From Actinomadura bangladeshensis (GTDB taxonomy: Bacteria > Actinomycetota > Actinomycetes > Streptosporangiales > Streptosporangiaceae), in the NCBI RefSeq assembly GCF_004348335.1, contig NZ_SMJW01000008.1:1-64000 (forward strand): DNA of 64,000 bases. The letters run 5' to 3'. Of this stretch, positions 15,699 through 43,770 are shown in pieces. Under the pieces are notes generated by a model. The model worked only from the letters and a program-made list of their open reading frames with translations. It had not been told where the DNA came from and ran no database searches. Numbering within the stretch: the stretch's first letter is position 1; every line of letters starts with the position of its first letter. The position numbers and the translations under genes were made by a program.

Positions 15699-16966
15699 GC
15701 CGGCGCCCTGCCGGGACGGGTCAGGACCATCGCGCTCTGGAAACCGCCGAAACCGCTGCCGACCGTGAGCACGGTGTCGGTCCGCCAGTCGCGCGCCGTG
15801 ACCGGCACGTAGTCGAGGTCGCATTCGGGATCGGGCTCGTGCAGGTTCGCTGTCGGGGGCACCACGTTGTTCTCCATGGCCAGGACCGAGGCGGCGATCT
15901 CTATCGAGCCGATCGCACCGAGGGAGTGGCCGACCATCGACTTGATGGAGCTGATCGGGGTACGGCGGGCGTGCTCGCCGAGGCTGCGCTTGAACGCGGC
16001 GGTCTCATGCCGGTCGTTCTGCTTGGTCCCCGAGCCGTGCGCGTTGATGTAGTCGACGTCCCGCGGGTCCATCCGCGCCCCGGCCAGCGCCGCGCGGATG
16101 GCCTCGGCCATCTCGCGGCCGTCGGGGCGCAGCCCGGTCATGTGGAAGGCGTTGCTCCGGGTGGCGTATCCGGCGATCTCGGCGTACACGCGGGCGCCGC
16201 GGCGGCGCGCCGCGCCCAACTCCTCCAGGACGAACATCGCCGCGCCCTCGCCGAGCACGAAGCCGTTGCGGGTCCGGTCGAACGGCCGGGAGGCGTGCTC
16301 GGGATCGTCGTTGCGCGGCGTGGTCGCCCTGATCGCGTCGAAGCAGGCCACCGTGATCGGCGAGATCGGCGCGTCGGTGGCACCGGCGATCATCACGTCC
16401 GCCGCACCGTCGCGGATCAGCCCGGCCGCGTAGCCGACCGAGTCCAGCCCCGAGGTGCAGCCGGTGGACACCACGGTGGCGGGCCCCTCGGCGCCGGCCG
16501 ACCAGGCGACCTCGGCCGCGAACGAACTCGGCACGAAGTAGCCGTACAGGTGGGGCACGGCGTACTCGTGGTCGACGAGGTCCAGCCGGCCGCCGTCGCT
16601 GACCACCCGGTACTCCTGGTCCAGGCCCATCGTGGCGCCGACGGCGCTGCCCACCGACACCCCGGTGCGATGGGGCGGGACGCCGCCGAGGTCCAGCCCG
16701 CTGTCGTCCACCGCCTCCCGCGCGGTGACGACCGCGAACTGCGCCGCCCGGTCCATGCGGCGCGTCTCCTGCGGTCCCAGGCCGTGCTCCCAGGCGTCGA
16801 AGTCCGCCTCGGCCGCGACCCGGGACCGGAACCCGGCCGGGTCGAAGAACGTGATGCCGCGGGTCGACGTGCGGCCCGCGCTGAGCAGGTCCCAGAACCT
16901 CTTGACCCCGATTCCTCCCGGCGCCAGCACCCCGATCCCGGTGATGGCCACCCGCCGACCGCTCAC
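15695..16966 (-). CDS. Ketosynthase alpha (type II PKS KS)
   Basis: A 423-residue beta-ketoacyl synthase with the complete triad. The nucleophile is C170 in STGCTSGLD, one His is in [11 protein letters not shown] and the other is in [12 protein letters not shown]. It condenses malonyl units on the ACP. The GTG at 16966 ([12 protein letters not shown]) follows a G-rich Shine-Dalgarno sequence and gives the normal length; longer readings of this frame extend into unrelated sequence. Second gene of the 18231-9709 operon. Confidence 0.96.
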
Positions 16967-17022: not shown

Positions 17023-18231
17023 CTAGCGGGAGGCCAGCGCTTCCAGCATCGGGACGACCTCGGCCGGCGTCGGCTGGGCCGCCATCTCCGCGGCGAGCGA
17101 CCTCGCCCGTTCGGCGTAGCGCGGCTCGTCGAGGATCTCCCGGCAGGCCGCGGCGATCACCTCGCCCGGGTCCCTGCCCGGCTCCTGCTCCCGCGGCCAC
17201 AGCGCCTTGGCCGCGCCGAATCCGCCGAGGGACCGCGCGCAGGTGTCGCGGTGGTAGTCCGGCTTGCCCTCGGGGATGATCAGCTGCGGCACGCCGGCGG
17301 CCAGCAGCGTCAAGATGGTGGTCGTACCGCCGTGGTTGACGACCAGGTCGCAGGTGGGGGCGACCGCGTCCAGCGGGATCCAGCCGACGCGGACATCGCC
17401 CGCCTCCCGGCTGAACCCCTCGGCGGCCGGGATGCGGTCGGGGATCCGGTGCTCGGTCAGGTCCCGGTTGCCCGGGGAGGCGGCGACCAGCACATCGGCC
17501 CCCATCCCGGTCAGCTCGGTCACCAGCCGCGGCATGGACCATCCCCCGTCGTGGAACATCAGGCCGCGGCTGCCCGAGGTGATCAGGATGCGGCGGCGCC
17601 CCTCCGGGCGGGTGTACATCCAGCGCTCGAGGCGGCGCTGCGGGTTGCTCGGGATCCAGCGCAGCGGCTGCGCGGGGGGTGCGTCCGCCGGCCGCAGCGA
17701 CGGCGGCGTGGCGTCGAGCAGCAGGTCGGGCCGCGGCAGCGCGTCCAGCCCGAGCCGCTCCAGCTCGGGCCGCAGCTCCTCCTCGGCGCCCGCGTCGATG
17801 CGCGCCACCGGGATCTCGTTCTCGATATGGCGCACGTACGGGATCTTGAGGCGGGCTCCGAGCAGCATCGCCGAGAAGGCCAGCGCGCTGCCCACGATCA
17901 GGTCCGGGGCCCAGTCCTCGGCCAGCCGCCGCAGCGCCTCCCCGCCGGCCAGGGCCATCTTCGCGAAGCCGTGGCCCTGCGCGAGCATCTGCTCGTCCGC
18001 CGGCATCGGCACGTACTGCCGGGGCTTTCCGGAGAGGGGCACGCCCATGAACGTCCGGAGCGGTTCTTCGGTGAAGCAGAACGTGGGGAGTCCGATGGAT
18101 TCCGCGGTCTTCACCCACGGCTCGTGCACGGCCAGCATGACCTCGTGCCCGGCGTTCCGCGCCGCCGTCACCAGTGGGGCCACCGAATAGTAGGTCGGCG
18201 AGGAGCCCGTGACGATGTACAGGATTTTCAT
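17023..18231 (-). CDS. Glycosyltransferase 2 (GT-B, GT1 family)
   Basis: A 402-residue natural-product glycosyltransferase. The start is [20 protein letters not shown], and the donor site is [26 protein letters not shown]. It is of normal length for antibiotic GTs and is the full-length paralogue of glycosyltransferase 1. It is the first gene of the PKS/sugar operon, reading away from the StrR-type site at 18342. It presumably attaches the aminosugar or the neutral sugar to the aglycone. Confidence 0.92.
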
Positions 18232-22858: not shown

Positions 22859-23728
22859 TCAGCCGGATTCGGCCACTTCCATGATGTACCGGCCATAGTC
22901 CGACTTCGCCTGCCTGCTGCCGAGCCGGTAAAAGGCGTCCCGGTCGATGTATCCCAGGCGCCAGGCGATTTCCTCGACGCAGGCGATCCGCACCCCCTGC
23001 CGGTGCTCGAGCACCTGCACGTACTGCCCCGCCTCCATGAGGGCGTCGTGGGTCCCGGTGTCCAGCCAGACGTAGCCCCGGCCAAGCTGGATCAGCGTGG
23101 CCTCGTCCCGCTCCAGGTAGATCCGGTTGACGTCGGTGATCTCCAGCTCCCCGCGCTCGGAGGGCCGCAACCGCCCGGCGATGTCCACCACCCGGTTGTC
23201 GTAGAGGTAGAGCCCCGTGATCGCCAAGTTGGTCCGCGGCCTGGCCGGCTTCTCCTGGATCGACACGAGCCTCCCCTGCTCGTCCACCTCGCCGATCCCG
23301 TACCGCTCCGGGTCCCGCACCGGGTGGCCGAAGAGCACGCAGCCCTCGACGTTGCGCGCGGCCCGGTGGAGCAGCGTGCCGAAGCCCGCGCCGTGGAAGA
23401 TGTTGTCGCCCAGGACCAGGGCGACGGAGTCGTCTCCGATGTGGTCCGCGGAGACCAGGAACGCGTCCGCGAGCCCTCTGGGCTTGTCCTGCTCCGCATA
23501 GCTCAGCGAGATGCCGAGCGACGAGCCGTCCCCGAGGAGTCTGCGGAACGCGTCCAGGTCGTCCGGTGAGGAGATGATCTGGATCTCGGTGATGCCCGCG
23601 AGCATCAGCACCGACAGCGGGTAGTAGATCATCGGTTTGTCGTAGACCGGAAGCAGCTGCTTCGAAATGCCGAGCGTGATCGGGTGCAGCCGCGTCCCAT
23701 GGCCTCCGGCGAGGATGATTCCTTTCAC
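22859..23728 (-). CDS. rfbA: Glucose-1-phosphate thymidylyltransferase
   Basis: A 289-residue short-form RmlA. Its N-terminus KGIILAGGHGTRLHPITLG carries the nucleotide-binding GG-x-GTRL and is followed by SKQLLPVYDKPMIYYPL. It makes dTDP-glucose from glucose-1-phosphate and dTTP, the first step of all deoxysugars here. The GTG at 23728 is chosen because AGGAGG lies about 7 nt upstream and VKGIILAGG is the usual beginning. Stand-alone on the minus strand, 156 nt from the hydrolase. Confidence 0.95.
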   Translation of the reverse strand: MKGIILAGGHGTRLHPITLGISKQLLPVYDKPMIYYPLSVLMLAGITEIQIISSPDDLDAFRRLLGDGSSLGISLSYAEQDKPRGLADAFLVSADHIGDDSVALVLGDNIFHGAGFGTLLHRAARNVEGCVLFGHPVRDPERYGIGEVDEQGRLVSIQEKPARPRTNLAITGLYLYDNRVVDIAGRLRPSERGELEITDVNRIYLERDEATLIQLGRGYVWLDTGTHDALMEAGQYVQVLEHRQGVRIACVEEIAWRLGYIDRDAFYRLGSRQAKSDYGRYIMEVAESG

Positions 23729-23932: not shown

Positions 23933-24121
23933 ATGCGAAAGTCGCGGTTCAAGTCGGCCCTGCGGTCCGTACTGGCACACGTCGGCGAAGGTCTGATGTG
24001 GACGGGGACCTTCTGGGCCGGGCCGATGTGGACCGATGCGCCTGCGGACGAGCCGGAGCGGGAGGCGCCGAGGGAAGGCGCCGCTACGGATTCAGCACCC
24101 AGGCGGAATGGTGCCGGGTGA
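23933..24121 (+). CDS. Possible small Trp-rich protein
   Basis: A short frame of about 62 residues beginning MRKSRFKSALRSVL, then LMWTGTFWAGPMWTDAPAD, with an acidic Glu/Pro-rich tail. Third codon positions are strongly GC-rich, as in neighbouring real genes, which supports coding. However, no good ribosome binding site is visible and the 3' end overlaps the convergent GNAT gene by 38 nt. No family is recognised. It could be a small cluster-specific protein or a chance frame. Confidence 0.3.
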   Translation: MRKSRFKSALRSVLAHVGEGLMWTGTFWAGPMWTDAPADEPEREAPREGAATDSAPRRNGAG

Positions 24122-24485
24122 AGCCGATGTGCGGGTAGTAGTCGGTGGCCGCCGGCGCCGACAGCAGCACGATCTTGGCCTGCGGCGCCTCTTTCCGCGT
24201 CGCGTCGATGAGGGCCCTGCCGATACCGGTCCGCTGGTACGGCCGGCTGACCGCGATATCGGACAGGTACGTGACGTAGGAGAAATCCGAGACACTGCGA
24301 GCGATGCCGACCAGCGCGCCGCCGACGCGGCAGGTGACGACCAGGTTGGCGTTGCGCACCATCGCCGCCATTCGTTCGACGTCCGCCACCGGGCGCCGTT
24401 CGCCGAGCCCCGAGGACCGGTAGACCTCCAGGACGTCGTCCAACTCCAGGGCGGCCCCGTTCTCCCGCTCAATCTCCCATGTCAC
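24084..24485 (-). CDS. GNAT N-acetyltransferase of the hydrazine cassette
   Basis: A 133-residue acetyltransferase fold with YLSDIAVSRPYQRTGIGRALI (the acetyl-CoA R/Q-x-x-G-x-G/A loop) and YYPHIGFTRHHSAW. The GTG start overlaps the lyase gene by 17 nt. In fosfazinomycin and kinamycin pathways a GNAT is encoded with the adenylosuccinate-lyase homologue and acetylates a hydrazine intermediate. The same pairing here suggests the same role. Confidence 0.82.
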   Translation of the reverse strand: MTWEIERENGAALELDDVLEVYRSSGLGERRPVADVERMAAMVRNANLVVTCRVGGALVGIARSVSDFSYVTYLSDIAVSRPYQRTGIGRALIDATRKEAPQAKIVLLSAPAATDYYPHIGFTRHHSAWVLNP

Positions 24486-25755
24486 GAAGAGCGTCCAATC
24501 GCTTGAGGATCACATCATGATGGACAAGGAAGCGTTCCGGCCCTAGCGGGCCGGTCTCGATTCCCTCGGCCCTGAGCAGCGTCTCGAGATCCGCAGCGCC
24601 GGACAGGGCTCCGTTCGCGGCGGCCTGGACCGCCCGGTAGGCGCGTTCGCGCTCGGTGCCGCTCTCCAGCAGATCGGCCAGCACCGCCGAACTGAACGCC
24701 AGGCCGCCGGTCCGGTCGATCGCGGCGCGCATCCGGTCCGGGAACACCTCGAGCGCCGCCACCAGGTCCGCCGCCGCGGTCGTCTGGTAGTGCGCGACGA
24801 TCATCGCGTCCGGGACGACGACCCGCTCGACCGACGAGTGCGACAGGTCGCGCTCGTGCCACAGCGCCACGTTCTCCAGCATCGTCCCCGCGTGGCCGCG
24901 CAGCAGCCGGGCCAGCCCGACCAGGCGCTCGCTGGTCGTCGGATTGCGCTTGTGCGGCATCGCGCTCGACCCCTGGTAGCCGGCCGTCCGGCTCTCCTCC
25001 ACCTCGCGGACCTCGCTGCGCGACAGCAGCCGCACCTCGGTGGCGATCTGCTCGACGCACGCGCCGAGCGCGGCCACCGCCTGCAGCAGCTGGGCGTGCC
25101 GGTCGCGGGCCACGACCTGGCTGGGCGCGGGCTCCACGCCCAGGCCGAGCTCCGCGCACACGTACTCCTCGACGAAGGGGTCGATCAGCGCGTAGGTGCC
25201 GACCGACCCGGAGATCGTGCCCACCGCCACCTCGGTGCGCGCCGCCTCCAGCCGCCGCACGGAGCGGTCGATCGCGAAGGCGAACCCGGCGAGCTTGTGG
25301 CCGAACGTCGTGGGCTCGGCGTGCATCCCGTGGGTCCGCCCGATGCACACGGTGTCCCAATGGCCGGCCGCCTTGTCGGCCAGCACGCCGCGAAGCCGCC
25401 GCGCCGCCCGGAGCAGGACGTCGCAGGCGCGGGCGAGGGTGTACCCAAGGGCCGTGTCCACGAGGTCGTAGCTCGTCATGCCCAGGTGCACCCACCGGGC
25501 GGAGTCGTCGGGGACGTCCTCGCAGAAGGCCGCGAGAAAGGAAAGGATCTCGTGGTCGCGCTCGCGCTCGAATTCCGCCACGCGCTCCGCCGACGGCACC
25601 TTGGCGCGCCGGATGTCGGCCAAGGCGCTTTCGGGTATCCGGCCGAGCGTCGCCTGCGCCTGAGACGCCAGGACCTCCACCTTGGTCCAGGTGGCGTAGC
25701 GCGCCTGATCCGTCCACAGATCTGCCATCTCCGGCAGCGAATAGCGGGATATCAT
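24469..25755 (-). CDS. Adenylosuccinate lyase-like enzyme of the hydrazine cassette
   Basis: A 428-residue fumarase/aspartase-superfamily lyase. It has the signature GSSAMPHKRNPTTSE, the active-site region GRTHGMHAEPTTFGHKL and HLGMTSYDLVDTAL. In housekeeping metabolism PurB releases fumarate. In fosfazinomycin and kinamycin the homologue eliminates fumarate from a hydrazinosuccinate derivative. Coupling to the GNAT, and divergent placement against amidase and glutamine synthetase genes, favours the specialised function. The ATG at 25755 lies about 95 nt from StrR-type site C. Confidence 0.9.
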   Translation of the reverse strand: MISRYSLPEMADLWTDQARYATWTKVEVLASQAQATLGRIPESALADIRRAKVPSAERVAEFERERDHEILSFLAAFCEDVPDDSARWVHLGMTSYDLVDTALGYTLARACDVLLRAARRLRGVLADKAAGHWDTVCIGRTHGMHAEPTTFGHKLAGFAFAIDRSVRRLEAARTEVAVGTISGSVGTYALIDPFVEEYVCAELGLGVEPAPSQVVARDRHAQLLQAVAALGACVEQIATEVRLLSRSEVREVEESRTAGYQGSSAMPHKRNPTTSERLVGLARLLRGHAGTMLENVALWHERDLSHSSVERVVVPDAMIVAHYQTTAAADLVAALEVFPDRMRAAIDRTGGLAFSSAVLADLLESGTERERAYRAVQAAANGALSGAADLETLLRAEGIETGPLGPERFLVHHDVILKRLDALRDMGD

Positions 25756-25850
25756 TTCCGTCCCTTCGCTGGATCAGTTCTACCGAAGGATAAGCACGAG
25801 CGGCGCCCGGGGCATAGCGGCCGTCGCCGACTTCTTCGTCCGTGCGGTCC

Positions 25851-25879
25851 GTTCAACTGCCGATTCGGCTCGGTTGAAC
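25851..25879. promoter_or_regulatory. StrR-type operator, site C
   Basis: GTTCAACTG, 11 nt, CGGTTGAAC, with the same 23-nt pitch between half-sites as site A. It lies between the divergent lyase/GNAT operon and the amidase operon, so it could control the whole hydrazine cassette. Confidence 0.75.
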
Positions 25880-25988
25880 CAGCCGGACGGGGCGGGCGGC
25901 GGGCACTCTTTCTCCGACCTTGCCCCCGAGCCCCGTCCTTGCCGGTCCAGCACTTGCACGGCGCTTTGCCGTGTCATCTAGTAGTCCC

Positions 25989-27404
25989 GTGCCAGTCACC
26001 GATGTCGCAAGCAATAGACAGCCGATCCACCAAGGTATTCGAGAGACAACGCAGTCCTTTCTCCGCGGCCGTTCGACCGTCACCGAGCACGTGCGGTCCG
26101 TGCTCGCGGCCATCGGTGCCTCGGACGCCGAGCTCGGCGCGTTCGTCACGGTCGCCGGCGACCGCGCGCTCCGGGAGGCGGCGGAGGCGGACCGGCTCAT
26201 CGCCGGGCTCGGCGAGGCCGCCTTCCGCGACCGGCCGCTGCTCGGCGTGCCGGTGGCGGTCAAGGACCTCATCCAGACGCAGGACCTCCCCACGCGGCGG
26301 GGGTCGCTGCTGCCGAACCGGCGCCCCGCGGTGGACGCCCCCGCGGTGGCCCGCCTCCGCGCCGCGGGCGCGATCGTGGTGGGCAAGACGGCGACCTCGG
26401 AGCACGGGTGGAGCGCCAGCACGGTGAGCCGGGTGGCCGGCCCCACCCGCAACCCGTGGGCCCTCGGAAGGACCGCCGGGGGGTCGAGCGGCGGATCCGC
26501 CGCCGCCGTGTCGGCGGGCCTGTGCACCGCGGCGCTCGGCACCGACGGCGCGGGCTCGATCCGCATCCCCGCGGCGTTCTGCGGCGTGGTCGGGTTCAAG
26601 CCGTCCGCCGGCCGGGTTCCCTACGTCCCCCCGTGCGCCGAGGGGCTGGCGCACGTCGGGCCGCTCGCGCGCAGCGTGGCCGACGCCGCGGCGCTCACGT
26701 CGCTGCTGGCCGGCCCCGACCACCGCGACCCGGACTCGGTGACCGGCCCGCCCGCGCTCAGGACGGGGCCCGTCTCCCTGCGCATCGGCTGGATCGAGTT
26801 CCCCCGGACGTCCGGTGAGGTCCGCAGGGCCACCGAGGACGTCCTGCCGGTGCTGACCGGGCTGGGACACCGCGTCGAGCGCATCGACGTCCCGTTCCCC
26901 GACCCGTACGCCGCCCTGGTGGACATCCTCGCCACCGCCGAGGCGAGCGGCACGTCGCCGGCCGACGAGCAGTGGTGCGACGAAGGCCGGCTCGCGGTCG
27001 TGCGCCATGGCCGCTCCCTGAGCGGCACGGCGGTGCTGCGCGCCGAGGAGGTGCGGCTCGCGCTGCGGGCGACGCTGGGCGCGGTAATGGACCGGTACCA
27101 CCTGCTGGCCATGGCGACCGTCCCCGTCGAGCCGTTCGCCGCGGACGCGATCGCCCCGCCGTGGGCGGCCGACCCGGACGACCTGCTGTGGCTCGCGTGG
27201 TCGCCCGCGACCTACCCGTTCAACATCACCGGCCAGCCGGCCCTGTCCCTTCCCGTCGGCGTCACGCCCGGCGGACTCCCGGTGGGGCTGCAACTCGTCG
27301 GCCGGCTCGGCGACGACGACCTGGTGCTGGCCGTGGCCGGACGCGTCGAGGCCGAACTCGGCCGCGCCTTCGTCCCGGCCGGCCCGACAGCGGAAAGAGA
27401 GTGA
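25989..27404 (+). CDS. Amidase (amidase-signature family) of the hydrazine cassette
   Basis: About 471 residues with the Ser-cisSer-Lys machinery of amidase-signature hydrolases. The lysine is K92 in VPVAVKDLIQT, the glycine/serine motif GGSSGGSAAAVSAG is at about 164-177, and GTDGAGSIRIPA carries the nucleophile. The GTG at 25989 is my choice; an ATG at 25920 would add 23 residues but overlaps the promoter region. In the kinamycin and fosfazinomycin cassettes an amidase hydrolyses an acylhydrazide to free hydrazine. It is followed after 2 nt by the glutamine synthetase homologue. Confidence 0.88.
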   Translation: MPVTDVASNRQPIHQGIRETTQSFLRGRSTVTEHVRSVLAAIGASDAELGAFVTVAGDRALREAAEADRLIAGLGEAAFRDRPLLGVPVAVKDLIQTQDLPTRRGSLLPNRRPAVDAPAVARLRAAGAIVVGKTATSEHGWSASTVSRVAGPTRNPWALGRTAGGSSGGSAAAVSAGLCTAALGTDGAGSIRIPAAFCGVVGFKPSAGRVPYVPPCAEGLAHVGPLARSVADAAALTSLLAGPDHRDPDSVTGPPALRTGPVSLRIGWIEFPRTSGEVRRATEDVLPVLTGLGHRVERIDVPFPDPYAALVDILATAEASGTSPADEQWCDEGRLAVVRHGRSLSGTAVLRAEEVRLALRATLGAVMDRYHLLAMATVPVEPFAADAIAPPWAADPDDLLWLAWSPATYPFNITGQPALSLPVGVTPGGLPVGLQLVGRLGDDDLVLAVAGRVEAELGRAFVPAGPTAERE

Positions 27405-27406
27405 TC

Positions 27407-28903
27407 ATGTTCTCCAGGCCATGGCCCCGGCCCGGCGGCGAGAGCGGCGTCGGCCGCCCTTCGTTCGTCGCCGAGTTCGGGCTCTGGGACGACCGGCAGG
27501 CCGCCGCGGCGGAGCGGATCGAGGTGGAGCTGGACGAGATCGACCTCGTCCGGGTCGTGTTCTGCGATCCGCACGGGTTGGCCCGGTCCAAGACGGTGCC
27601 CGCGGACGTGTTCCGGACAGTGCTGCGCAACGGCATGGACTTCAGCCCCGGGCCGTTCCTGTTCGACACCGGCCATGCCGTGGCCGTCGATTTCCTCGCC
27701 GACTCCGGCGTCGGGGTCGGTGAGCTTCGCGGCGCGGGCGATTTCGTGCTCGTCCCGGATCCGCGCACGTTCCAGGTCCTGCCCCGGACCGAGTCCAGGA
27801 CCGCCTGGGTGCTCGGCGACGAGTACCTGCGGGACGGCACGCCGCACCCGCTCGCGTCCCGCGGCGTGCTGCACCGTGTGTGCGCCGAGTACGCCCAGCA
27901 CGACCTGGCCCCGGTCATCGGGCTGGAGGTCGAGTGGTACCTCACGCGCCTTTCGGGCGGGCCGCCGGGGAACGCGGGCAACGGATTCGGCCTGCAGGGA
28001 GCCGCGCCGGCGGTGGAGGCGGTGAACTCCGGCTACCAGTTCAATCTCGACGGCCACTACGACTCGGTGGCCGAGGTCGCGGACCCGCTGGCCGCGATGC
28101 TCATGGCACTCGGCCTGCCGCTGCGCACGATGGAGCACGAGTCCGGCCCCGGGCAGCTCGAGACGACCTTCGCGCCCATGCCGGCCCTGGACGCCGCCGA
28201 CGCGATGCTGCTGTTCCGCACCCAGGTGAAGCAGTTCTGCAGGCGGCGCGGCTTCCACGCGTCCTTCATGACGCTGCCGCGCCTGGACGGCTTCGACTCC
28301 AGCGGCTGGCATCTGCACCAGTCCGTCACCAGCACGAAGACGAACCTCAACGTGTTCGCGGCGGGCGGCGGCACGGCGGACGCGATCTCCCCCGAGGGGG
28401 AGTCCTATGTCGAGGGCCTGCTGGCGCGGGCGCGGGAGTTCTGCCTGCTGTCGGTCCCGACGGTGAACGGCTACCGGCGGCTGGCTCCGGAGTTCCCGCT
28501 GGCCCCCACCGGCGTCGACTGGCGCTTGGAGGACCGCAGCGCCATGGTCCGGGTGCTGAGCGGCGACGCCGCGACCCACGTCGAGAACCGGATCGGGGAG
28601 CCGTGCGCGAACCCCTACCTGGTCATCGCCTCCCAGCTCTCCGCCGGCCTGGAGGGCCTGCTCTCCGGCCTCCCCGCCGAACCGAACGCCCATCCGGCGC
28701 TGCCGCGGTCGCTGCGCGAGGCGCTGAGCGCCTTCGGCGCGAGCCGGCGTGCCGAGGAACTGCTCGGCACGCCGCTCCGGACGTGCCTGGCGAAGCTGAA
28801 GGAGAGCGAGGCGTCGCGGTTCGAGACCTGGTGCGCGGCGGAGCGTCCCGCCGGCGGCGAAGTCACCGACTGGGAGCACCGCGAGTACTTCGGTGCCTTC
28901 TGA
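27407..28903 (+). CDS. Glutamine synthetase-like ligase (predicted glutamyl-hydrazine synthetase)
   Basis: A 498-residue GS-family protein. Metal and ATP residues are visible in VIGLEVEWYL, HESGPGQLETTFAP, SSGWHLHQSV and the C-terminal DWRLEDRSAMVRVL. Work on fosfazinomycin and kinamycin showed that a GS homologue joins hydrazine to the side chain of glutamate, making glutamic acid the hydrazine carrier. The neighbours here are the same set, so this role is proposed. The ATG at 27407 is preceded by GGAAAGAGA and lies next to the amidase stop; a GTG at 27401 is possible. Confidence 0.88.
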   Translation: MFSRPWPRPGGESGVGRPSFVAEFGLWDDRQAAAAERIEVELDEIDLVRVVFCDPHGLARSKTVPADVFRTVLRNGMDFSPGPFLFDTGHAVAVDFLADSGVGVGELRGAGDFVLVPDPRTFQVLPRTESRTAWVLGDEYLRDGTPHPLASRGVLHRVCAEYAQHDLAPVIGLEVEWYLTRLSGGPPGNAGNGFGLQGAAPAVEAVNSGYQFNLDGHYDSVAEVADPLAAMLMALGLPLRTMEHESGPGQLETTFAPMPALDAADAMLLFRTQVKQFCRRRGFHASFMTLPRLDGFDSSGWHLHQSVTSTKTNLNVFAAGGGTADAISPEGESYVEGLLARAREFCLLSVPTVNGYRRLAPEFPLAPTGVDWRLEDRSAMVRVLSGDAATHVENRIGEPCANPYLVIASQLSAGLEGLLSGLPAEPNAHPALPRSLREALSAFGASRRAEELLGTPLRTCLAKLKESEASRFETWCAAERPAGGEVTDWEHREYFGAF

Positions 28904-28932
28904 CCGACGATGAGGAAGCTGAGGAGGACGAC

Positions 28933-29268
28933 ATGCCGTGGGCGAAAGACGCTCCTTCGGCGGCCGGGGCCGAACGCGCCGAACGGATCGCGCGGCGGTC
29001 CCGCGCCGAGAACTGGCGGAAGCCGCCGCGCCGCATCGAGACGTCGGAATGCATCACCTGCGACCGGTGCCTGCGCAACTGCCCGCCCGAATTCGGGGCG
29101 ATCCTCGATCGCGGACTCGACGTCGTGATCGTCCCCGAACTGTGCTCCGGCTGCCCGGTGTGCGTGATGGTCTGCCCCGTCGACTGCATCTACGTGGACG
29201 AGCAGTGGACACCGACGCCCGACCGGCTGTGGGACCACCTCGGCCTGATGGCCGGAGGATCGCCATGA
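28933..29268 (+). CDS. 2x[4Fe-4S] ferredoxin
   Basis: A 111-residue ferredoxin with a 35-residue basic N-terminal extension. It has two complete CxxCxxCxxxCP motifs: CITCDRCLRNCP, and CSGCPVCVMVCP followed by VDC. It should supply low-potential electrons. GAGGAG lies directly upstream, and the stop overlaps the next start (ATGA). It is therefore coupled to the unknown 625-residue protein, its most likely redox partner. Confidence 0.92.
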   Translation: MPWAKDAPSAAGAERAERIARRSRAENWRKPPRRIETSECITCDRCLRNCPPEFGAILDRGLDVVIVPELCSGCPVCVMVCPVDCIYVDEQWTPTPDRLWDHLGLMAGGSP

Positions 29269-31142
29269 GCGCGCCCACCGAGCGGGGCGCCGCGCCGTCC
29301 CGCAAGGCCGCGCTGGCGAAGGCGCGGCAGAGCCGGCGGCCCAGCCGGCTCGGGCAGCGGGCCGGGACCGCCGGCAAACCGGACTACCCGGTGGCCGAGG
29401 ACGCCGGGTTCCCCGGGCTGCTCAAGCGCACCTGGCGGCGGGCTGCCGCCGCGGACGACCTGCCCGCGGCCGTGGACGCGCTGCTGACGCTCGCCGGCCA
29501 CGTCCCCGCCGACATCCAGCTGCGCGCGCTGCCCGTCCCGGCCGAGTGCGCGCTGAAGGTCCTGTTCGGCAGGTCGTGGCGGGAAGACGGCCGGACCGCC
29601 GATCCGGCCGGCACCGCGGAGGCGGCGTTCCTCGGCGAGATCGGGCTGAGCACCAGCGGCCGCGTCCTCGTGCGCGTCCCGTCGGAAGGCCCGCTGTCCC
29701 CCGACGGCCTCGTGGGCGGCGTGCTGCGCGTGCCATGGTCCGCGCGGCAGCTGTCGGACTACCGGGCCGAACTGGCCCGTGCCGCCGAACGGCTGCGCGC
29801 GTCGGTCGCCGACTGCCGCGCGTGGCTCGCGGCGGCTGGACCGGGCGGCCGCCAGGACATGCTGGACGACCTCAAGGAGGCGGCCCTGCGGACGGCGCCG
29901 TTCGTGCTGTACTCCGGGGACCGCCAGTACACCAACTTCCGGGACCGCAACACGCTGACCGGTAAGACGCTTCGGCCGGGGCACCCGGACTGCGCGCTCA
30001 GCAGCCTGGCGGGCGTACCGCTCGAACTGTGGTCCGACAGCGACGTGCTGATGGTGGTCTGCCTGACGCTGCTGGTGCGGTCGGTGGGGTTCGCCCGGAT
30101 CGAGGAGGCCAACGGGACGCAGCTCACCACCGAGCATGTGGCCCACCTGCTCGAACGGACGCGGGTGGCGTACAACGGCGTTCCCGGCGGGCGGCGGGTG
30201 CCGCCGGCGGCCTCGGCCCGGGTCGCGGCGCTGAGCGACCTGGCGGAGGCGGTCGCCGCACGCCGCCGGGAGATCACCACCAGGGTCAGGCTCTACCGCG
30301 AGATCCACGGCCCGCTGATGCACAAGATCGAACGCATCGCGGGGGCGCCCGCCGGCGGCGCGCGGCGGCTGGAGGCCGACCTCTGCGCGCGCGTACGCGA
30401 CCGGCTCCCGGTGGCGGGCGGCACGCTCGGGGAGCTGGGCGCCGCGATCGAGGCGTCGCCCCGCTGGCTGGCCGAGCCGCGCGGCGAGTTCGGCACGGGC
30501 CTGGAGTCCCTGGTCTACGAGACCGTGCGCGCGGCGACGGCGGCGTTCGGCGCCGACTGCGCGATGAGCCGCGGCATGCGGTCGCTCACGGCACTGGTCG
30601 AGGCGCTGCGCGGGCGCAAGTGGGCCGAGATCGCCGGCTGGGACATGCCGCACTTCTTCTGCTGCGTGGTGCCCGCGCCGCAGGCCCGGCGCCACTTCGG
30701 GGACTCGCCCGCGCACCTGGCCGACACCGCGTGGTCGATCTCCGCGCGCATGCAGTACAACTCGTGGCACTTCCTGGCCGGCAACCTCCCGAAGGTTCCC
30801 GAGGTCAAGGCCCGCGACTACTTCGTGCCGCCCACCATCTCCGACATCGCCCACCACTCCGACCAGCACCACCACGGCCACGTCGCCGCCAAGGTGCGGT
30901 ACAGCGTCCGCAGCCCGCAGGCGGTGGACGTGCTCGGCCGGACCTTCAACGGGTTCGTCGACCTGCGGCTGCTGCGCTGCGAAGGGCGGCCGTTCGACGA
31001 GCAGGACCTGCTGGCCGCCGACCGCGCCTCGGCCTTCATCGCGAAGGCCACGGGCCTCGCCGCGGCGCTCGCCGCCGAGGGCGCGGACATCGAGGTCACG
31101 GCGTTCGACACCCGGTGGCACTGGGAGAAGATCGCCCGGTAG
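29265..31142 (+). CDS. Conserved large protein of unknown function in the diazo cassette
   Basis: A 625-residue soluble-looking protein without a family I can name. The N-terminus is basic. A middle section is FVLYSGDRQYTNFRDRNTLT. Most striking is an aromatic and histidine-rich segment near the C-terminus: MQYNSWHFLAGNLPK, then DIAHHSDQHHHGHVAAK. It also has FFCCVVPAP. The His/Asp cluster could bind metal. It is translationally coupled to the ferredoxin. As the last gene of the hydrazine operon and with no assigned function, it is the best local candidate for the step attaching or oxidising the N-N unit; this is inference. Confidence 0.8.
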   Translation: MSAPTERGAAPSRKAALAKARQSRRPSRLGQRAGTAGKPDYPVAEDAGFPGLLKRTWRRAAAADDLPAAVDALLTLAGHVPADIQLRALPVPAECALKVLFGRSWREDGRTADPAGTAEAAFLGEIGLSTSGRVLVRVPSEGPLSPDGLVGGVLRVPWSARQLSDYRAELARAAERLRASVADCRAWLAAAGPGGRQDMLDDLKEAALRTAPFVLYSGDRQYTNFRDRNTLTGKTLRPGHPDCALSSLAGVPLELWSDSDVLMVVCLTLLVRSVGFARIEEANGTQLTTEHVAHLLERTRVAYNGVPGGRRVPPAASARVAALSDLAEAVAARRREITTRVRLYREIHGPLMHKIERIAGAPAGGARRLEADLCARVRDRLPVAGGTLGELGAAIEASPRWLAEPRGEFGTGLESLVYETVRAATAAFGADCAMSRGMRSLTALVEALRGRKWAEIAGWDMPHFFCCVVPAPQARRHFGDSPAHLADTAWSISARMQYNSWHFLAGNLPKVPEVKARDYFVPPTISDIAHHSDQHHHGHVAAKVRYSVRSPQAVDVLGRTFNGFVDLRLLRCEGRPFDEQDLLAADRASAFIAKATGLAAALAAEGADIEVTAFDTRWHWEKIAR

Positions 31143-31197: not shown

Positions 31198-31938
31198 TCA
31201 GGCCACCGTGGGCTGCGGCGCCGAGCGGGAGTGCACGACCTGGTAGGCGTTCCAGTCGACGGCGGTCGTCAGGGAGTTCCGCCTGTCCTGGGACTTGCGG
31301 CGGGCGGCCGGCTGCTCGTCCTCGTCCTGCGCCCGGAACGCGTCGTAGGACTCCTTGCCGTCCCACTGCGAGTAGACCACCACGAAGTCGTTGTCCGAAC
31401 CGATGGCCTCAAGGTCGCCGTCGCTGGCCGGACCGCGGGACCGGATGCCCCGCAGCACGTTCCGCGAGCGGTAGCCCGGCACGTCCACCAGCCAGTCGTG
31501 GGCGGCGCCCAGCACGGCGATCAGCTCGGTCTGGTCGGAGGGCTCCACCCCGAGGATCTCGATCACCGTGTAGTCGTCGCGCTCGGGCGAGATCTCGGTG
31601 GCATCGCCCTGCGCGGGGTGGCGCCGGCTCACCTCCACCTCGGTCTGCATCAGCCGCATGAACGTCGTGATCTCGTGGAACACCGGCACCGTGCGGTGCT
31701 TGAACTCCGCACCCGCGTACCTGGACTCCAGGTCCTGCGCGCCCCGCCACTGGATGAAGTTCGCGGTCCCCGGGTCCGCCAGGCCCCGGTGGACGGTGCT
31801 GGAGATCCAGCCGGGGAACGCCGCGGTGTCGACGATGGCCCGCATCTCCCGGACCAGCCGGTCGACTCGTCGGGGCGTGTCCGTCTTGAACAGGTTGATG
31901 ACCGTCAGGTACCCGTCTTCGGGATTGATGAAGGGCAT
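31198..31938 (-). CDS. Didomain ABM-family oxygenase (JadG/GilOII/AlpJ type), predicted ring B opening
   Basis: A 246-residue protein of two antibiotic-biosynthesis-monooxygenase ferredoxin-like domains. The first is about residues 8-100 (YLTVINLF, NFIQWRGAQDLESRY). The second is about 120-240 (YTVIEILGV, FVVVYSQWDGKESYDAF). This size and duplication match the angucycline enzymes JadG, GilOII and AlpJ, which cleave ring B of dehydrorabelomycin on the way to jadomycin, gilvocarcin and kinamycin. Here it is the last gene of the oxygenase operon, next to the diazo cassette, consistent with a benzofluorene route. Confidence 0.82.
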   Translation of the reverse strand: MPFINPEDGYLTVINLFKTDTPRRVDRLVREMRAIVDTAAFPGWISSTVHRGLADPGTANFIQWRGAQDLESRYAGAEFKHRTVPVFHEITTFMRLMQTEVEVSRRHPAQGDATEISPERDDYTVIEILGVEPSDQTELIAVLGAAHDWLVDVPGYRSRNVLRGIRSRGPASDGDLEAIGSDNDFVVVYSQWDGKESYDAFRAQDEDEQPAARRKSQDRRNSLTTAVDWNAYQVVHSRSAPQPTVA

Positions 31939-31951: not shown

Positions 31952-33452
31952 TCAGGTGGCTGTGGCGACGGCCGCGGCGGACGCCGCGGCCTGATGACCG
32001 TCGTGCGGCTGCCCGAACCACCGGGTCAGGGCGTCGGGCAGGCCCGCGTCCCCGGAACCGGCGGAGCCGATCCAGGCGATGTAGCCGTCCGGCCGTACCA
32101 GCACGGCGTCGACGTCCGCGAGAGCCCCGGCCGGACGGTCGCCGGCGGTGACGACATCGATCCGGTCGGTCCACGGCCCGGCGGCGGCGCGCAGCCCGTC
32201 GTCGCCGCCAAGGTCGAAGAGGACGCCGCGTCCGGCGGACAGGTGCTGGAAGGCGCTCTCCCGGCCGGCGGCCAACTCGACGTCGGGCAGCCGGCGGCCG
32301 AGCAGCGGATGGTCGCCCGGCCCGACGTCGTACCGGATGTCCAGGCCGGTGACCATGCCGACCAGCAGCTTCTGGACCTCCTCGTAGGCCAGCAGCTCGG
32401 CCATGACCTCGCGCATCGGGTCCATCTCGTCGCCGCCGAGGTACAGGATGCGCTGGGCGAGGGTGTTGGCCAGGATGCGGGCGCCCACGGGATGCCGCTC
32501 GTCGTGGTAGGTGTCCAGCAGGCCGGCCGGCGCGTGCCCGCCGATCGCGGCGCCGAGCTTCCAGCCCAGGTTCACGGCGTCGCCGATGCCCGCGCTCATC
32601 CCCTGGGCACCGACCGGCAGATGGATGTGGGCGGCGTCGCCCAGCAGGAACACCCGTCCCCGGCGGTACCGCGCGGCCTGCCGGGCGGCGTCGGTGGTCC
32701 AGCTCGTCCACAGCGGGGTCCCGCCGCTGATGTCCTCGCCGGTCAGCCGGTTCAGCGCGGCGGCGACCTCGCCGAAGGCCGGCGCGCCCTCGCCCTGGCG
32801 CGCCATGCCCCGCTCGTACACGATCACGCGCTGGATCTCCGGGCCCAGCGGCAGGACCATCACCATCCCGCCCGGCACGCGCTCGCCGGAGAAGCGCGGC
32901 CGCAGACCGCAGCCCTTCACGTCGGCGAACCACATCTCGATCGTCGGATCCGTGCCCGGGAAGTCGACGCCGGCCATCTTGCGGACGTCGCTCCGGGCGC
33001 CGTCGCAGCCGGCCACGTAGCGTGCGCGCAGGCGTTTCGGCCCCTCCGGTGTGACGACGTCCAGCTCGACGCCGTCGTCACCGGCATGGAGCCCGGTGAC
33101 CTCGTGCTCCCGGTGGACCACCGCTCCCAGCCCGCGGGCCCACTCCGCCAGCAGCCCCTCGGTGAGCGACTGGGGCTTCCCCCGGGCGCCGTAGGAGCCG
33201 CCCTCCAGTACCCGGAAATCGATGGGCAGCCCGCCGAAGTGACCGAACGGGATGGTCTCCAGGTCACCGAAGCGCGGCAGCAGCCCGCGCTGGTCGAACT
33301 CCTCGATGGCGCGGGCGGAGAAGCCGAGCGCGCGCGACTGCCTCATCGGCTCGGCGAGCCGCTCCAGCACGATGGTCTCGGCTCCCGCCAGGCGCAGCTC
33401 GCCCGCGAGCATCAGTCCGGTGGGGCCCGCCCCGACCACGATGACATCGGCG

Positions 33453-33466
<14 letters not shown>
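31952..33466 (-). CDS. Class A FAD-dependent monooxygenase 1
   Basis: A 504-residue aromatic polyketide hydroxylase. It has an N-terminal FAD dinucleotide fold (VIVVGAGPTGLMLAGEL), the DG motif (GCDGARSDVRK) and the GD motif (LLGDAAHIHLPVGAQGMSAG). The C-terminal thioredoxin-like domain ends VRPDGYIAWIG. It belongs to the PgaE/JadH/UrdE group of angucycline oxygenases. The ATG at 33466 overlaps the end of monooxygenase 2 by 14 nt. It probably supports hydroxylation or dehydration steps around ring B. Confidence 0.9.
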
Positions 33467-34912
<1,446 letters not shown>

Positions 34913-34916
<4 letters not shown>

Positions 34917-37372
34917 GACGCCGCGCGCCCGCCCGCCGAGCCCTCGGCGTAGGCCTTCGCGGCGTGCAAGGTGACCAGGCTGTTGCCGCTCAGCGCCTTG
35001 CGGACGGTCTCCTTCGCGGTCGCCACGTCCGCCCCCGAGCCGAGGACCTCGGCGATGCGCGCCGTGTTGATCCGCACCGTGTGCCGCGATGTCACCGACA
35101 CGCCGGCCCCGTCGCGCTCCTCGATGAGCCAGCGCCCGGTGTGCAGCGTCATCAGGGCGGGCGTGACGATCTGCTTGTAGACGATGTCGGTGTACGGCCG
35201 GCAGACGCGCACGGACCGGGTCGTGTGCGTCGATCCGTCCTTCGTGGTGGTGTCCATCTCGAGGATCTGCAGCCCGGGGGTCTCCTCCTCCAGCGACACC
35301 CGCGCGACGTGCGGGAGCCGCTGCTGCCACAGCTGGGCCTCGTTGAGGAAGTCGTAGACGTCCTTGGCACTGCCGTCGACCAGCACCGTGTCTTCGAACG
35401 TGAGGAGCCGGTCGGGGCCGCTCAGCTCCACGCTCGTCTTGAGGGCGTTCAGCTCCGCCGTGCTGTTGCGGTCGACCGCCCGGCCGATCCAGTCGAGATC
35501 GGCGGGGTCGTCGCCCGCGGCGAAGAAGTCGTGCAGCAGGCGCACCCGGCACTCGGATTCCGAAACGGGCTCGATCACCCATTCGCCGCCCATGCCCCCG
35601 ACCGGGTGCTGGGACCGCTCCTGGCGGAACGAGACGCTCATCCGCCGCGGGTCGTGCCGGCGCCTGGACGTCCAGGTCTTGGCCTTGCCGTTCGCCGTCG
35701 CCCAGATCCGGATCAGCTCGCTGTCGCCGTCCCGGTCCAGGCATTCGGCGTGGACGGTCGGCGGGAAGACCTCCGGCCACCTGCCGACATCCGCGATCAG
35801 CTCGTACACCCGCGCGGCGGGAGCGGCGACGCCGACCGCGTGCTCGGTCTCCCGCACTTCGCCCACCTCGCGCACTCCGCTCGTCTCCTTCGCCTCGCTC
35901 GCCTCGCTCGCCTCGCCGAACCAGCGCCGCAACGCCGCGGCGAGACCGTCCTCCCCCGGGCCGGTCCAGGCGACGTATCCGTCAGGACGGATCAGCACCG
36001 ACTCCGTCGCGGCTCCGCCGTCTTCCGGGCCGGCCGGGAAGGCATCGGTCCGGACCAGGTCGACGCGGTCGGACCATCCGGCGGCGCACCGGGCGGTGCC
36101 GCCCGAGCCGTCGGCGGTGATCAGGACGCCCCTGGCCGGATGCAGCAGCCGCGCGATCCGGGTGGAGCCGCCATCGGGCAGCCCCAGCTCGCGGTCCGCC
36201 ATCCGCCCGCCCAGCAGGGGATGGCGTCGCTGCTCGCCGACGTCGTACCGGATGTCGAACCCGCTCACCATGCCGGCCAGATGCCGCGCCACGACCGGGA
36301 GCGCCATGAGCTCCCCCATGACGGTGCGCAGCGGCCCGACCGAACTGCCGCTCAGGTTGAGCGTCCCCTGAGCGCGGGTGTTGCGCAGAACCCGCTCCCC
36401 CACCGGGTGCCGCTCGCCGTGGTAGGTGTCCAGCAGGGTCTCCGGAGCCCGTCCCGCGACCGTCGCGGCCAGCTTCCAGCCGAGGTTGGCCGCGTCCTGC
36501 AACCCGACGCTCATCCCCTGGCCGCCGGCCGGCAGGTGGATGTGCGCGGCGTCCCCGGCCAGCAGCACGCGGCCGCGCCGGTACTCGGTGACCTGGCGTG
36601 TGGCGTCGGTGAAGCTGCTCACCCAGCGCGCCCGGCCGCCGTGGATCGACTCGCCCGTCAGCCGCTGCCACGCGTCCGCGACATCGGCGAAGGCCGCCTG
36701 GCGGCCCTTGTCCGGCGTGACCCCGTTCTCGCACACGATGATGCGGAAGTAGCCCTCCTCCAGCGGTGCCGCCATGACCATGCCGGTCGGCAGGAGCTCG
36801 CCGATCATCCGCGGCCGGATGTCGCAGCCGGTGACGTCGGCGAGGTACATCTCGCGCGTGGCGTCGGAGCCCGGGAAGTCGAAGCCGGCGAGCTTGCGGA
36901 CGGTGCTCCGGCCGCCGTCGCAGCCCACCAGGTAGCGGGCCCGGTACTCCTCTTCGCCCGCCGGCCCGCGCACGGTCGCGGTGACGCCCTCTCCCGTGCC
37001 GTCCAGGCCGGTGAGCTCGTACCCGCGGCATATCCGCGCGCCGAGGTCCCGCGCCCAGCCCTCGAGCATCTCCTCGATCTTGTACTGGGGCGCGCCGTGC
37101 ACGCCGAAGTACGCGCCTTCGAGCACTCCGAAGTCGAGCGGGATGCCGCCGAAGTGCCCCCGCCTGGTGATCTTGCCGTCGTCCAGTCGGTCCAGCAGGC
37201 CGCGCTGGTGGAGCACCTCGGCCGCACGCGCGGTGAATCCGATGCCGCGTGATTCCCAGCTGCGCTCGTCCCGCCGTTCGACCACGGTGACGGTCGCGCC
37301 GCCGAGCCGGAGCTCGCCCGCGAGCATGAGTCCGGTCGGGCCCGCGCCGACCACGATGACGTCAGTTTCCAT
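34913..37372 (-). CDS. Fusion of FAD monooxygenase and didomain aromatase/cyclase
   Basis: An 819-residue two-part protein. Residues 1 to about 500 form a class A monooxygenase (VIVVGAGPTGLMLAGEL, GCDGGRSTVRK, LLAGDAAHIHLPAGGQGMSVG, ending RPDGYVAW and RRWFG). A repetitive Glu/Ala/Ser/Val linker follows (EASEASEAKETS, then VREVGEVRE; DNA about 35860-35920). Residues about 525-819 carry two START/Bet v1-like domains typical of didomain ARO/CYC proteins such as JadD (VYELIADVGRWPEVFPPTVHAE and VYDFLNEAQLWQQRLPHVARV). No stop or frameshift separates the parts. It would combine first-ring cyclisation/aromatisation with an oxygenation. Confidence 0.9.
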
Positions 37373-38396
37373 GGGGGATCGCCTCGATGATCGAGACCGG
37401 TGAGGTTGTGGGGACCACCCCGGTGACCTTCAGGCCCGCCTTGGCGAACAGCTCGGTGTACTCCGGCAGCGTGCGCTCCTTGGCCCCCAGCAGGAGGAGG
37501 AGCCACAGGTCGATGATGTTGCCGATGTGCCGTTCGTTGTTCCCGCCGAGCACGTACTCGATCACGAGCGTCTTTCCGCCGGGGGCGATCGCGTCCCGGA
37601 CGTTCTTCAGCAGCGTGAGACAGTCGGGTTCGGTGAAGTCGTGCAGGATGTGCTTGAGCACGTAGGCGTCCGCGCCCGCCGGCAGCTTGTCGAAATGGCC
37701 GCCGTTCTCGATCCTGACCCGCCCCGCGGCACCGGCCGCCTCGAACACCGGTGGCGCGTCCGCGGTCGCGGCCTCGGAGTCGTACAGCACGCCGTGCGTG
37801 CCGGGCGCCTGCGCGAGGATCCCCGCCAGCAGGGTGCCACGCCCGCCGACCACGTCCACGACCGTGCCGAACTGGGAGAAGTCGTACGCCTTGAGCACCG
37901 GGTCGGTCTCCGCCCCGGACATGCTGCTCATCCCGTAGAAGAACTCGGCCGCGTAGTCGGGGTTCGCCGTGAGGAACTCGTAGGCCCCCATGCCGCGGAG
38001 TTTCGGCAGGTTGGCCTCGCCGCTGCGCACCGAGGCGAGCAGGCCGCCCCACTCCTCCCAGAGCAGCGGGTGGCCCATCAGCATCGCGATGCCGCGCATC
38101 GAGTCGGGGGCGTCCTCGCGCAGCGCGTCGGCCATCGGCGTGAGCGCGAACCGCCCGTCCGCCCGCACCGCGAACACCGCATGGCCGGACAGCGTGCGCA
38201 GCAGCCGGTACATCGCCTCGGGATCGCAGCCGGTCCGCTTGGCGATCTCGTCCGCGTGCAGCGGTCCGTCGCCGAGGACGTCCGCCACGCCGAGCTTCGC
38301 CGCGACAGAGATCGCCTGGGTCAGCACCGCGCCTTGAATCAGATCCAGCAGCGAGTACGCGGCGGACCGGTCCCGCGCCGGGGGCGACGTGGACAT
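37362..38396 (-). CDS. SAM-dependent O-methyltransferase (DnrK/TcmO family)
   Basis: A 344-residue methyltransferase. The N-terminal dimerisation domain has LLDLIQGAVLTQAISVAAKLGVADVL. The SAM domain has VVDVVGGRGTLLAGIL and KHILHDFTEPDCLTLLKNV, where His is the usual general base. It is the first gene of the oxygenase operon, and its stop overlaps the fusion gene by 11 nt. Some relatives (RdmB-like) are hydroxylases; the complete SAM motif here supports methylation. The target is a phenol of the aglycone or a sugar hydroxyl. Confidence 0.88.
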   Translation of the reverse strand: MSTSPPARDRSAAYSLLDLIQGAVLTQAISVAAKLGVADVLGDGPLHADEIAKRTGCDPEAMYRLLRTLSGHAVFAVRADGRFALTPMADALREDAPDSMRGIAMLMGHPLLWEEWGGLLASVRSGEANLPKLRGMGAYEFLTANPDYAAEFFYGMSSMSGAETDPVLKAYDFSQFGTVVDVVGGRGTLLAGILAQAPGTHGVLYDSEAATADAPPVFEAAGAAGRVRIENGGHFDKLPAGADAYVLKHILHDFTEPDCLTLLKNVRDAIAPGGKTLVIEYVLGGNNERHIGNIIDLWLLLLLGAKERTLPEYTELFAKAGLKVTGVVPTTSPVSIIEAIPHGN

Positions 38397-43756: not shown

Positions 43757-43770
43757 ACAGGAGCGCGAGC

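Follow-up and report, generated by a model that had tools for sequence, protein, structure and literature searches.

The window analyzed here, a 64,000-base stretch of Actinomadura DNA (bases 1-64000 of contig C598, which is 70585 bases long, in an 8.7-Mb draft genome), very probably carries a lomaiviticin-type diazobenzofluorene gene cluster with an embedded hydrazine cassette. Judged by its genes, this cluster (approximately 6-60 kb of the window) adds a new member to the lomaiviticin (lom)-type clusters, an assignment made because it is largely collinear with a lom-type locus of Salinispora. Our case is built on gene content, family membership, individual residues, phylogeny and synteny, and the steps that form and process the nitrogen-nitrogen (N-N) bond, like the step ascribed to the AlpH homologue, are taken from published enzymology of homologous proteins. 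Kinamycins and lomaiviticins have been studied as antitumour leads (PMC10477347).

Gene calling by codon GC bias yielded 54 genes in the window (g1-g54; numbers beginning with L, G and C are our handles for loci, genomes and contigs). Gene calls together with Pfam and NCBIfam matches place six cassette genes within 24084-31142, encoding a GNAT acetyltransferase, a PurB-like lyase, an amidase, a glutamine synthetase (GS)-like ligase, a ferredoxin and a protein of 625 residues. The genes form two groups that diverge around 25756-26090, with a 17-base overlap between the GNAT and lyase genes and 4-base overlaps both between the amidase and GS-like genes and between the ferredoxin gene and the last gene. 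All are full-length, and they recur as a group in other genomes, which is more than chance would give. A sequence-only reading of this interval had named the first five gene types in divergent groups, and all five are present where it placed them, but it overlooked the sixth gene, a homologue of KinJ. Its proposal that these enzymes follow the hydrazine pathway of fosfazinomycin and kinamycin (fzm/kin), here within a cluster of the atypical angucycline kind, is supported by the joint occurrence of GNAT, lyase, GS, amidase and KinJ homologues, by the lyase and GS trees, and by an AlpH homologue.

The overlooked gene (29265-31142) has the marks of the KinJ/FzmP family and would be the key gene of the cassette. 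This family has been described as lacking any recognizable domain, and KinJ as a heme enzyme that works with the ferredoxin KinI to convert aspartate and nitrite to hydrazinosuccinate, with low turnover in vitro (2025 preprint, PMC12154649). The window protein matches no Pfam or NCBIfam model at 0.001 and no PDB entry at E 1. Nine residues reported for KinJ (K356, C468, R497, M498, N501, H504, H541, R551 and R570; R496 and R550 appear there in print as well; PMC12154649) map at a constant offset of -2 to K354, C466, R495, M496, N499, H502, H539, R549 and R568 of the window protein. The mapping was made from the published numbering, and the compared sequences are homologues in sequenced genomes rather than KinJ itself; all nine positions are invariant in an alignment of 28 such homologues. 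We place the protein in the KinJ/FzmP family because of the absence of a known domain, the adjoining ferredoxin gene and the nine residues, with heme binding and hydrazinosuccinate formation as predicted functions. Its AlphaFold2 model has a mean predicted local distance difference test score (pLDDT) of 89.9. In Actinomadura livida JCM 3387, the KinJ homologue is split over two reading frames (G047:C9:254720-256583, L099), reflecting either a broken gene or a sequencing error.

The sequence-only reading had raised the possibility that the lyase and GS would cluster with housekeeping PurB and polyamine-type GS, and both trees contradict this. The window lyase falls in a cassette clade of 27 rows (support 99/99; 23 distinct sequences), apart from PcaB-like proteins and from the PurB-like paralogue of its own genome, which is 42-45% identical to it. 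Four rows of this tree are second copies of loci already included (L104 being the window's own), three of the 51 loci (L107, L108 and L182) gave no row, their aligned span being too short or no match being kept, and only the cassette clade itself is used, the outgroups having long branches. Similarly, 21 other cassette GSs form a clade with the GS-like protein (98/98), and three GS paralogues from its own genome, with 27-30% identity, fall outside it, in a tree whose three outgroup rows have very long branches.

Two further homologues connect the cassette to the polyketide. AlpH couples glutamylhydrazine to its polyketide without S-adenosylmethionine (SAM) (PMC10477347). Although the protein of 37362-38396 resembles an O-methyltransferase, AlpH is its top PDB match at 375.6 bits, a margin of 166 bits over the next (209.4). 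Ten of the 12 AlpH pocket positions named in PMC10477347 are identical, K266, H267, H270 and D271 among them, with F157 replaced by Tyr and V314 by Ile. Its SAM motif, DVVGGRG, has lost the first glycine of DxGxGxG, as compared with DFCGGQG in AlpH, and this glycine is kept in only one of 37 loci examined (L048; L101 aligned in part only). With AlpH as the closest match, conserved pocket residues and a degenerate SAM motif, we assign the protein to the AlpH family. The ABM (antibiotic biosynthesis monooxygenase) enzyme encoded next to the KinJ homologue belongs by sequence kinship to the AlpJ/JadG/GilOII family, with PDB matches to 5f9p, which we take to be AlpJ, and 9kdp. This enzyme, a cyclase and deoxysugar genes had been listed in the sequence-only reading; all were confirmed by Pfam, NCBIfam or PDB matches, as were ketosynthase (KS) and acyl carrier protein (ACP) genes. 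That reading had missed the AlpH homologue, the collinearity with Salinispora, and a peptidase C26-like protein (49920-50669) that probably corresponds to KinW/Alp1W. Deletion of alp1W abolished most kinamycin production (PMC10477347).

Of the 46 window genes g6-g51, 37 find a counterpart at 60% identity or more in Salinispora pacifica CNR114. From g51 to g22, the matched genes are consecutive there in inverted order, and in the left part the polyketide synthase (PKS) genes and g21 are displaced. Nine genes lack a counterpart at this level, namely g6, g11 (30%), g12, g14 (35%), g17 (45-46%), g19, g39 (58%, at the same locus as g38), g48 (33%) and g49. Conversely, Salinispora gene 58, whose Kibdelosporangium homologue falls in no Pfam family, has no counterpart in the window, and the only match to gene 57 is the AlpH-like protein, at 36%. 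The window also differs in having an E1-type 3-dehydrase, a C3 aminotransferase and an N,N-dimethyltransferase, in lacking a DUF3050 gene, and in its minimal PKS, which is 69/63% identical (KS-alpha/KS-beta) to that of Salinispora and 68/64% to that of a locus labelled 'Rhodococcus rhodnii', in contrast to 86-89%/79-82% for other Actinomadura and Kibdelosporangium loci. A starter unit other than that of the Salinispora cluster is possible. As an observation in its own right, the minimal PKS lineage differs from those of Salinispora and the R. rhodnii-labelled cluster despite the collinear remainder, and PKS genes may have been exchanged. By counting genes with KinJ as Lom29, the NmrA-family protein would be Lom19 and the alpha/beta hydrolase Lom6, which fits what is stated in PMC4506494 and PMC12154649. 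Scanning genome contigs with a profile of the KinJ alignment gave 64 loci, from which records very near the window's own were possibly left out. Loci that combine the cassette with homologues of AlpH and AlpJ, these being 72-83% identical, are found in Actinomadura (five records), Salinispora (four), Actinoallomurus (two), Kibdelosporangium aridum and Phytoactinopolyspora; in further loci the identity is lower.

These genes suggest the following pathway. The KinJ homologue and its ferredoxin would reduce nitrite onto aspartate to give hydrazinosuccinate, which the GNAT would acetylate, and the lyase would then free acetylhydrazine. The GS-like ligase is predicted to place acetylhydrazine on the side chain of glutamate, and removal of the acetyl group by the amidase would leave glutamylhydrazine. 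In parallel, an angucycline would be built by the type II PKS together with cyclases and flavin adenine dinucleotide (FAD) oxygenases, to be contracted by the AlpJ-like enzyme to a benzofluorene, to which the AlpH-like enzyme may join glutamylhydrazine. Loss of the glutamyl group, perhaps with the KinW-like protein, would produce the diazo group, A-ring oxidation would come next, and two glycosyltransferases would add what are most likely a 3-dimethylamino-2,3,6-trideoxyhexose of angolosamine/rhodosamine type and a 2,3,6-trideoxyhexose of rhodinose type. Sugar identities, the order of steps, expression, and a dimeric or monomeric product are all deduced rather than observed.

The sugar assignment depends largely on the single aminotransferase of the window, which by its PDB matches is of the C3 and not the C4 class. 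We take PDB 2oga to be DesV (C3), 2po3 to be DesI (C4) and 3bxo to be DesVI. The 3-dehydrase (6079-7383) has HH at the site of the aminotransferase lysine motif that binds pyridoxal phosphate, and carries C-x-C-x7-C. With a C3 enzyme as the only aminotransferase, the 3-dehydrase more probably acts in the route to another sugar, a neutral 2,3,6-trideoxy one. The likely pair is one sugar of angolosamine/rhodosamine type and one of rhodinose type, the latter modelled on the rhodinose route reported for urdamycin. Kibdelosporangium retains the epimerase, C3 aminotransferase, N-methyltransferase and 4-ketoreductase candidate, with no 3-ketoreductase within the 70 kb compared, and this gene set fits a 3-amino sugar route. 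Lomaiviticins F-H from Micromonospora sp. carry on the lomaiviticin core 4-O-methyl-L-angolosamine, a 3-dimethylamino sugar, which is the class predicted for the window, and also pyrrolosamine or methoxy groups, with no neutral 2,3,6-trideoxy sugar noted in the parts of that report consulted (PMC11857394). Among the literature matches listed, titles and the starts of abstracts name no lomaiviticin with rhodinose or forosamine; in two papers naming these sugars, forosamine is on macrolactams and rhodinose on landomycins (PMC5797532, PMC11766693). A new glycoform is the likely product suggested by these genes. The dimethylaminosugar pathway of the sequence-only reading is borne out by the C3 aminotransferase and N,N-dimethyltransferase genes. 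Its expectation of a new product also stands, albeit for another reason: it had set the 3-dehydrase against the aminosugar of lomaiviticin, a link made doubtful by the C3 aminotransferase and by lomaiviticins F-H.

Our initial reading was that the 3-dehydrase and aminotransferase act on one sugar to give a forosamine-like 2,3,4,6-tetradeoxy-4-dimethylamino product. The 3-dehydrase, aminotransferase and N-methyltransferase do share one cluster, and the 'R. rhodnii' cluster has the same 3-dehydrase adjoining a C4-type aminotransferase (PDB 2po3, 1.1e-115). However, the C3-type matches of the window enzyme weaken this interpretation (SpnR was not among the compared proteins), and the C4-type proteins of two other clusters find nothing better in the window than 11334-12443 itself, at 30-33%, and nothing in the contig's other 6.6 kb. 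We consider a forosamine-like sugar improbable, although it is the strongest of the alternatives.

Somewhat less probable is a monomeric diazobenzofluorene of the kinamycin or fluostatin kind instead of a dimeric glycosylated lomaiviticin-type product. The hydrazine cassette and the AlpH and AlpJ types are common to kinamycin (PMC10477347), the genes for dimerization have not been established according to PMC4506494, and the minimal PKS is not close to that of Salinispora. Against this, GS precedes the ferredoxin and KinJ genes in the window as in Salinispora, whereas it follows KinJ in most Streptomyces loci. The SAM motif of the AlpH homologue points the same way, because a DFC start is found in none of 20 loci with the lom layout but in 16 of 17 others (the exception being L053), and the window has DVV. 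Two glycosyltransferases, deoxysugar genes, and counterparts of the NmrA protein and hydrolase are also present. It is unlikelier still that the cluster is silent or decayed. Expression is an assumption, the A. livida homologue lies in two frames, and, in the account of PMC5797532, Streptomyces CS159 has a lomaiviticin-like cluster but showed no compound of that kind by ultra-performance liquid chromatography; yet the cassette genes here are full-length, and the KinJ and AlpH homologues are conserved at the checked positions. The idea that a lyase, GS and amidase of ordinary metabolism merely chance to sit in a PKS cluster can be practically dismissed, for although NCBIfam names the lyase purB over its cut-off, the trees and conserved synteny, with KinJ and AlpH homologues alongside, contradict it.

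Several points weigh against the overall explanation proposed here. The pathway is read from genes, with product, transcript and enzyme activity all predicted, and the genome is a draft of 609 contigs. KinJ, KinI, KinW and the Lom proteins are represented by homologues from sequenced genomes and not by their own sequences, and the Salinispora locus is lom-type by its genes, so that lomaiviticin production by it would be an assumption. The aglycone may differ, given the divergence of the minimal PKS. The methyltransferase MmcR shares K266, H267, H270 and D271, which are thus not AlpH markers by themselves. Finally, the nitrite-making Alp2F is reported as essential for kinamycin in S. ambofaciens (PMC12181624), while the genome of the window has neither a DUF3050 match nor a nitrosuccinate lyase above the curated threshold (CreD model; CreE was not searched), which together leave a gap in nitrite supply.

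The best CreD match of this genome scores 453.7 bits against a cut-off of 650. This frame, on contig C606, was dropped as a nitrite source, as it passes the PcaB cut-off; it adjoins genes whose starts resemble, by eye, an IclR regulator and 4-hydroxybenzoate hydroxylase. Among 23 genomes the CreD model is over cut-off in two (G117 and G119), and matches of 557-587 bits in G105, G109, G112 and G113 fall below it but may be real. CreD and CreE are absent from most KinJ clusters (PMC12154649), and are thus not required. A DUF3050 gene lies between the GS and ferredoxin genes in 13 (e.g. L093:8815-9606, L095, L040 and L052) of the 21 loci of lom layout, in which GS directly precedes ferredoxin and KinJ and which include Micromonospora rosaria L062, and elsewhere near the cassette in two further loci (L064 and L096), for a total of 15 of 53 loci with GS and KinJ matches. 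Its absence from that position in eight of the 21 means that it does not define the type, and in the window the corresponding gap is 29 bases (28904-28932) with no such gene. DUF3050 matches occur in 13 of 21 genomes, and the 14 control genomes have none. In the Kibdelosporangium copy, 93-105 and 177-215 show E-x11-H and E-x29-H-x3-D-x3-H, a spacing that agrees with the diiron ligands put forward for this family (PMC4520260). DUF3050 also matches MgoB, encoded in the mangotoxin mgo operon (PMC3298696), and among the papers found that name DUF3050, none has a title linking it to lomaiviticin or kinamycin. Possibly, this diiron-type protein is the nitrite source in cassettes that have it. A role as a PvfB-type N-oxygenase was dropped, PvfB being placed in another family (PMC10724926). 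Actinomadura fibrosa has the gene and neighbouring Actinomadura species in the lyase tree lack it, which suggests that it is dispensable or replaced.

The genome of the window has two NarG-type nitrate reductase genes over cut-off (G000:C30:3585-7211 and C277:6521-10141). Over 21 genomes, NarG is found in five of the seven that have neither DUF3050 nor an over-cut-off CreD and in eight of the 13 that have DUF3050; it is missing from G117, which has CreD but lacks DUF3050. Without clear complementarity, NarG was rejected as a substitute. Only tentatively do we propose a new lomaiviticin-type glycoside with 3-dimethylamino and 2,3,6-trideoxy sugars whose cassette has no dedicated nitrite-making enzyme, KinJ drawing nitrite or nitrate from general nitrogen metabolism. 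The cluster offers a way to ask by experiment which enzyme supplies KinJ with nitrite where CreD and CreE are absent, and the presence or absence of DUF3050 among close relatives offers a natural comparison.

The cluster can be set beside several known systems. It shares the cassette KinI-N and the AlpH and AlpJ logic with kinamycin (kin/alp), but the sugar genes and glycosyltransferases are its own. It has five genes, FzmN-R, in common with fosfazinomycin (PMC6133997), which differs in its phosphonate pathway and lack of an in-cluster ferredoxin (PMC12154649). The 'R. rhodnii NRRL B-16535' locus (G116:C24) has the same cassette and sugar genes (3-dehydrase 84-85%, C3 aminotransferase 82%, N-methyltransferase 78%), but differs in having DUF3050, a second aminotransferase of C4 type and a Salinispora-like minimal PKS. 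Its record (L095) is a 12.4-Mb genome in which the cluster flanks resemble Kibdelosporangium by eye, and is possibly mislabelled. Cluster 26 of Streptomyces CS159, compared by its description, has three glycosyltransferases, no KS genes within the cluster and a predicted product related to but different from lomaiviticin, and with this published example a lom-like cluster is not in itself a novelty outside Salinispora (PMC5797532). Titles and starts of abstracts name no kinamycin, lomaiviticin or diazobenzofluorene from Actinomadura among the matches listed, and the Actinomadura angucyclines named in PMC11766693 are of other kinds. What the window would add is a lomaiviticin-type cluster in Actinomadura with a different sugar set.

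Table 1. Predicted cluster genes of the window, in order of position (dTDP, deoxythymidine diphosphate; NDP, nucleoside diphosphate; SDR, short-chain dehydrogenase/reductase).
Feature	Position	Strand	Evidence
E1-type sugar 3-dehydrase	6079..7383	+	NCBIfam RfbH 664 bits, over cut-off; PDB 3bcx 3.3e-149
dTDP-glucose 4,6-dehydratase	7448..8392	-	TIGR01181 370 bits, over cut-off
Glycosyltransferase	8615..9649	+	TIGR04516 140 bits, under its cut-off
Putative sugar 3-ketoreductase (Gfo/Idh/MocA)	9709..10671	-	Pfam
RmlC-like sugar epimerase	10703..11308	-	TIGR01221 136 bits, under its cut-off 155.75
Sugar C3-type aminotransferase	11334..12443	-	Top PDB 7b0d, 2oga, 3frk QdtB; lysine motif SFYPTK
Sugar N,N-dimethyltransferase	12440..13165	-	PDB 3bxo 2.8e-79
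Sugar 4-ketoreductase candidate	13152..14147	-	Pfam Epimerase; putative role
Minimal type II PKS: ACP, KS-beta, KS-alpha	14189..16951	-	KS-alpha 86-89% to Actinomadura and Kibdelosporangium clusters, 69% to Salinispora
Second glycosyltransferase	17023..18231	-	TIGR04516 136 bits, under its cut-off
Glucose-1-phosphate thymidylyltransferase	22859..23728	-	TIGR01207 428 bits, over cut-off
GNAT acetyltransferase, predicted KinN/FzmQ role (acetylates hydrazinosuccinate)	24084..24485	-	Pfam Acetyltransf_10; 76-89% identity to counterpart in seven other lom-type clusters
PurB-like lyase, predicted KinM/FzmR role (releases acetylhydrazine)	24469..25755	-	NCBIfam purB over cut-off; cassette clade 99/99
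Amidase, predicted KinK/FzmO role (deacetylates glutamyl-acetylhydrazine)	26091..27404	+	Pfam Amidase 7.9e-98; synteny
GS-like ligase, predicted KinL/FzmN role (loads acetylhydrazine on glutamate)	27401..28903	+	Pfam Gln-synt_C 7.2e-57; cassette GS clade 98/98
Dicluster ferredoxin, predicted KinI role (electron donor to KinJ)	28933..29268	+	Pfam Fer4_21; 67-84% to ferredoxins adjoining KinJ homologues
KinJ/FzmP-family heme enzyme, putative N-N bond former, 625 aa	29265..31142	+	No known domain; nine KinJ residues at constant offset
AlpJ/JadG-family ring-cleaving oxygenase (ABM enzyme)	31198..31938	-	PDB 5f9p 1.4e-65, 9kdp 1.1e-60
FAD aromatic hydroxylase	31952..33466	-	Pfam FAD_binding_3
FAD aromatic hydroxylase	33453..34916	-	Pfam FAD_binding_3
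FAD oxygenase fused to two-domain polyketide cyclase, 819 aa	34913..37372	-	Pfam FAD_binding_3 and Polyketide_cyc twice
AlpH-like, probable SAM-independent installer of glutamylhydrazine	37362..38396	-	PDB 8h3t AlpH 2.1e-111, next best 7.4e-61
Ketoreductase	38611..39396	+	Pfam adh_short
Polyketide cyclase	39417..39743	+	Pfam Cyclase_polyket
NmrA-family SDR, probable Lom19 counterpart	40431..41294	-	Pfam NmrA; 75% to Salinispora counterpart; Lom number by gene counting
Two FAD oxygenases, A-ring oxidation candidates	42242..45285	+	Pfam FAD_binding_3 and Rng_hyd_C in both; putative role after PMC4506494
Peptidase C26/amidotransferase-like, KinW/Alp1W candidate	49920..50669	+	Pfam Peptidase_C26 3.3e-51; assigned by family, not by alignment to KinW/Alp1W
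NDP-hexose 2,3-dehydratase	51871..53109	-	Pfam Hexose_dehydrat 7e-153
Alpha/beta hydrolase, probable Lom6 (epoxide hydrolase) counterpart	59003..59779	+	Pfam Abhydrolase_6; 76% to Salinispora; Lom number by gene counting

The oxygenase-cyclase fusion of 34913-37372 is also present in A. rudentiformis, A. fibrosa and Kibdelosporangium, but Salinispora pacifica, the R. rhodnii-labelled locus and others encode the two parts separately. At the left edge of the window, the genes of 541-4078 have no match in the related clusters compared; they encode a PhyH dioxygenase between two proteins with FGE-sulfatase (formylglycine-generating enzyme) domains, and probably lie outside the cluster.

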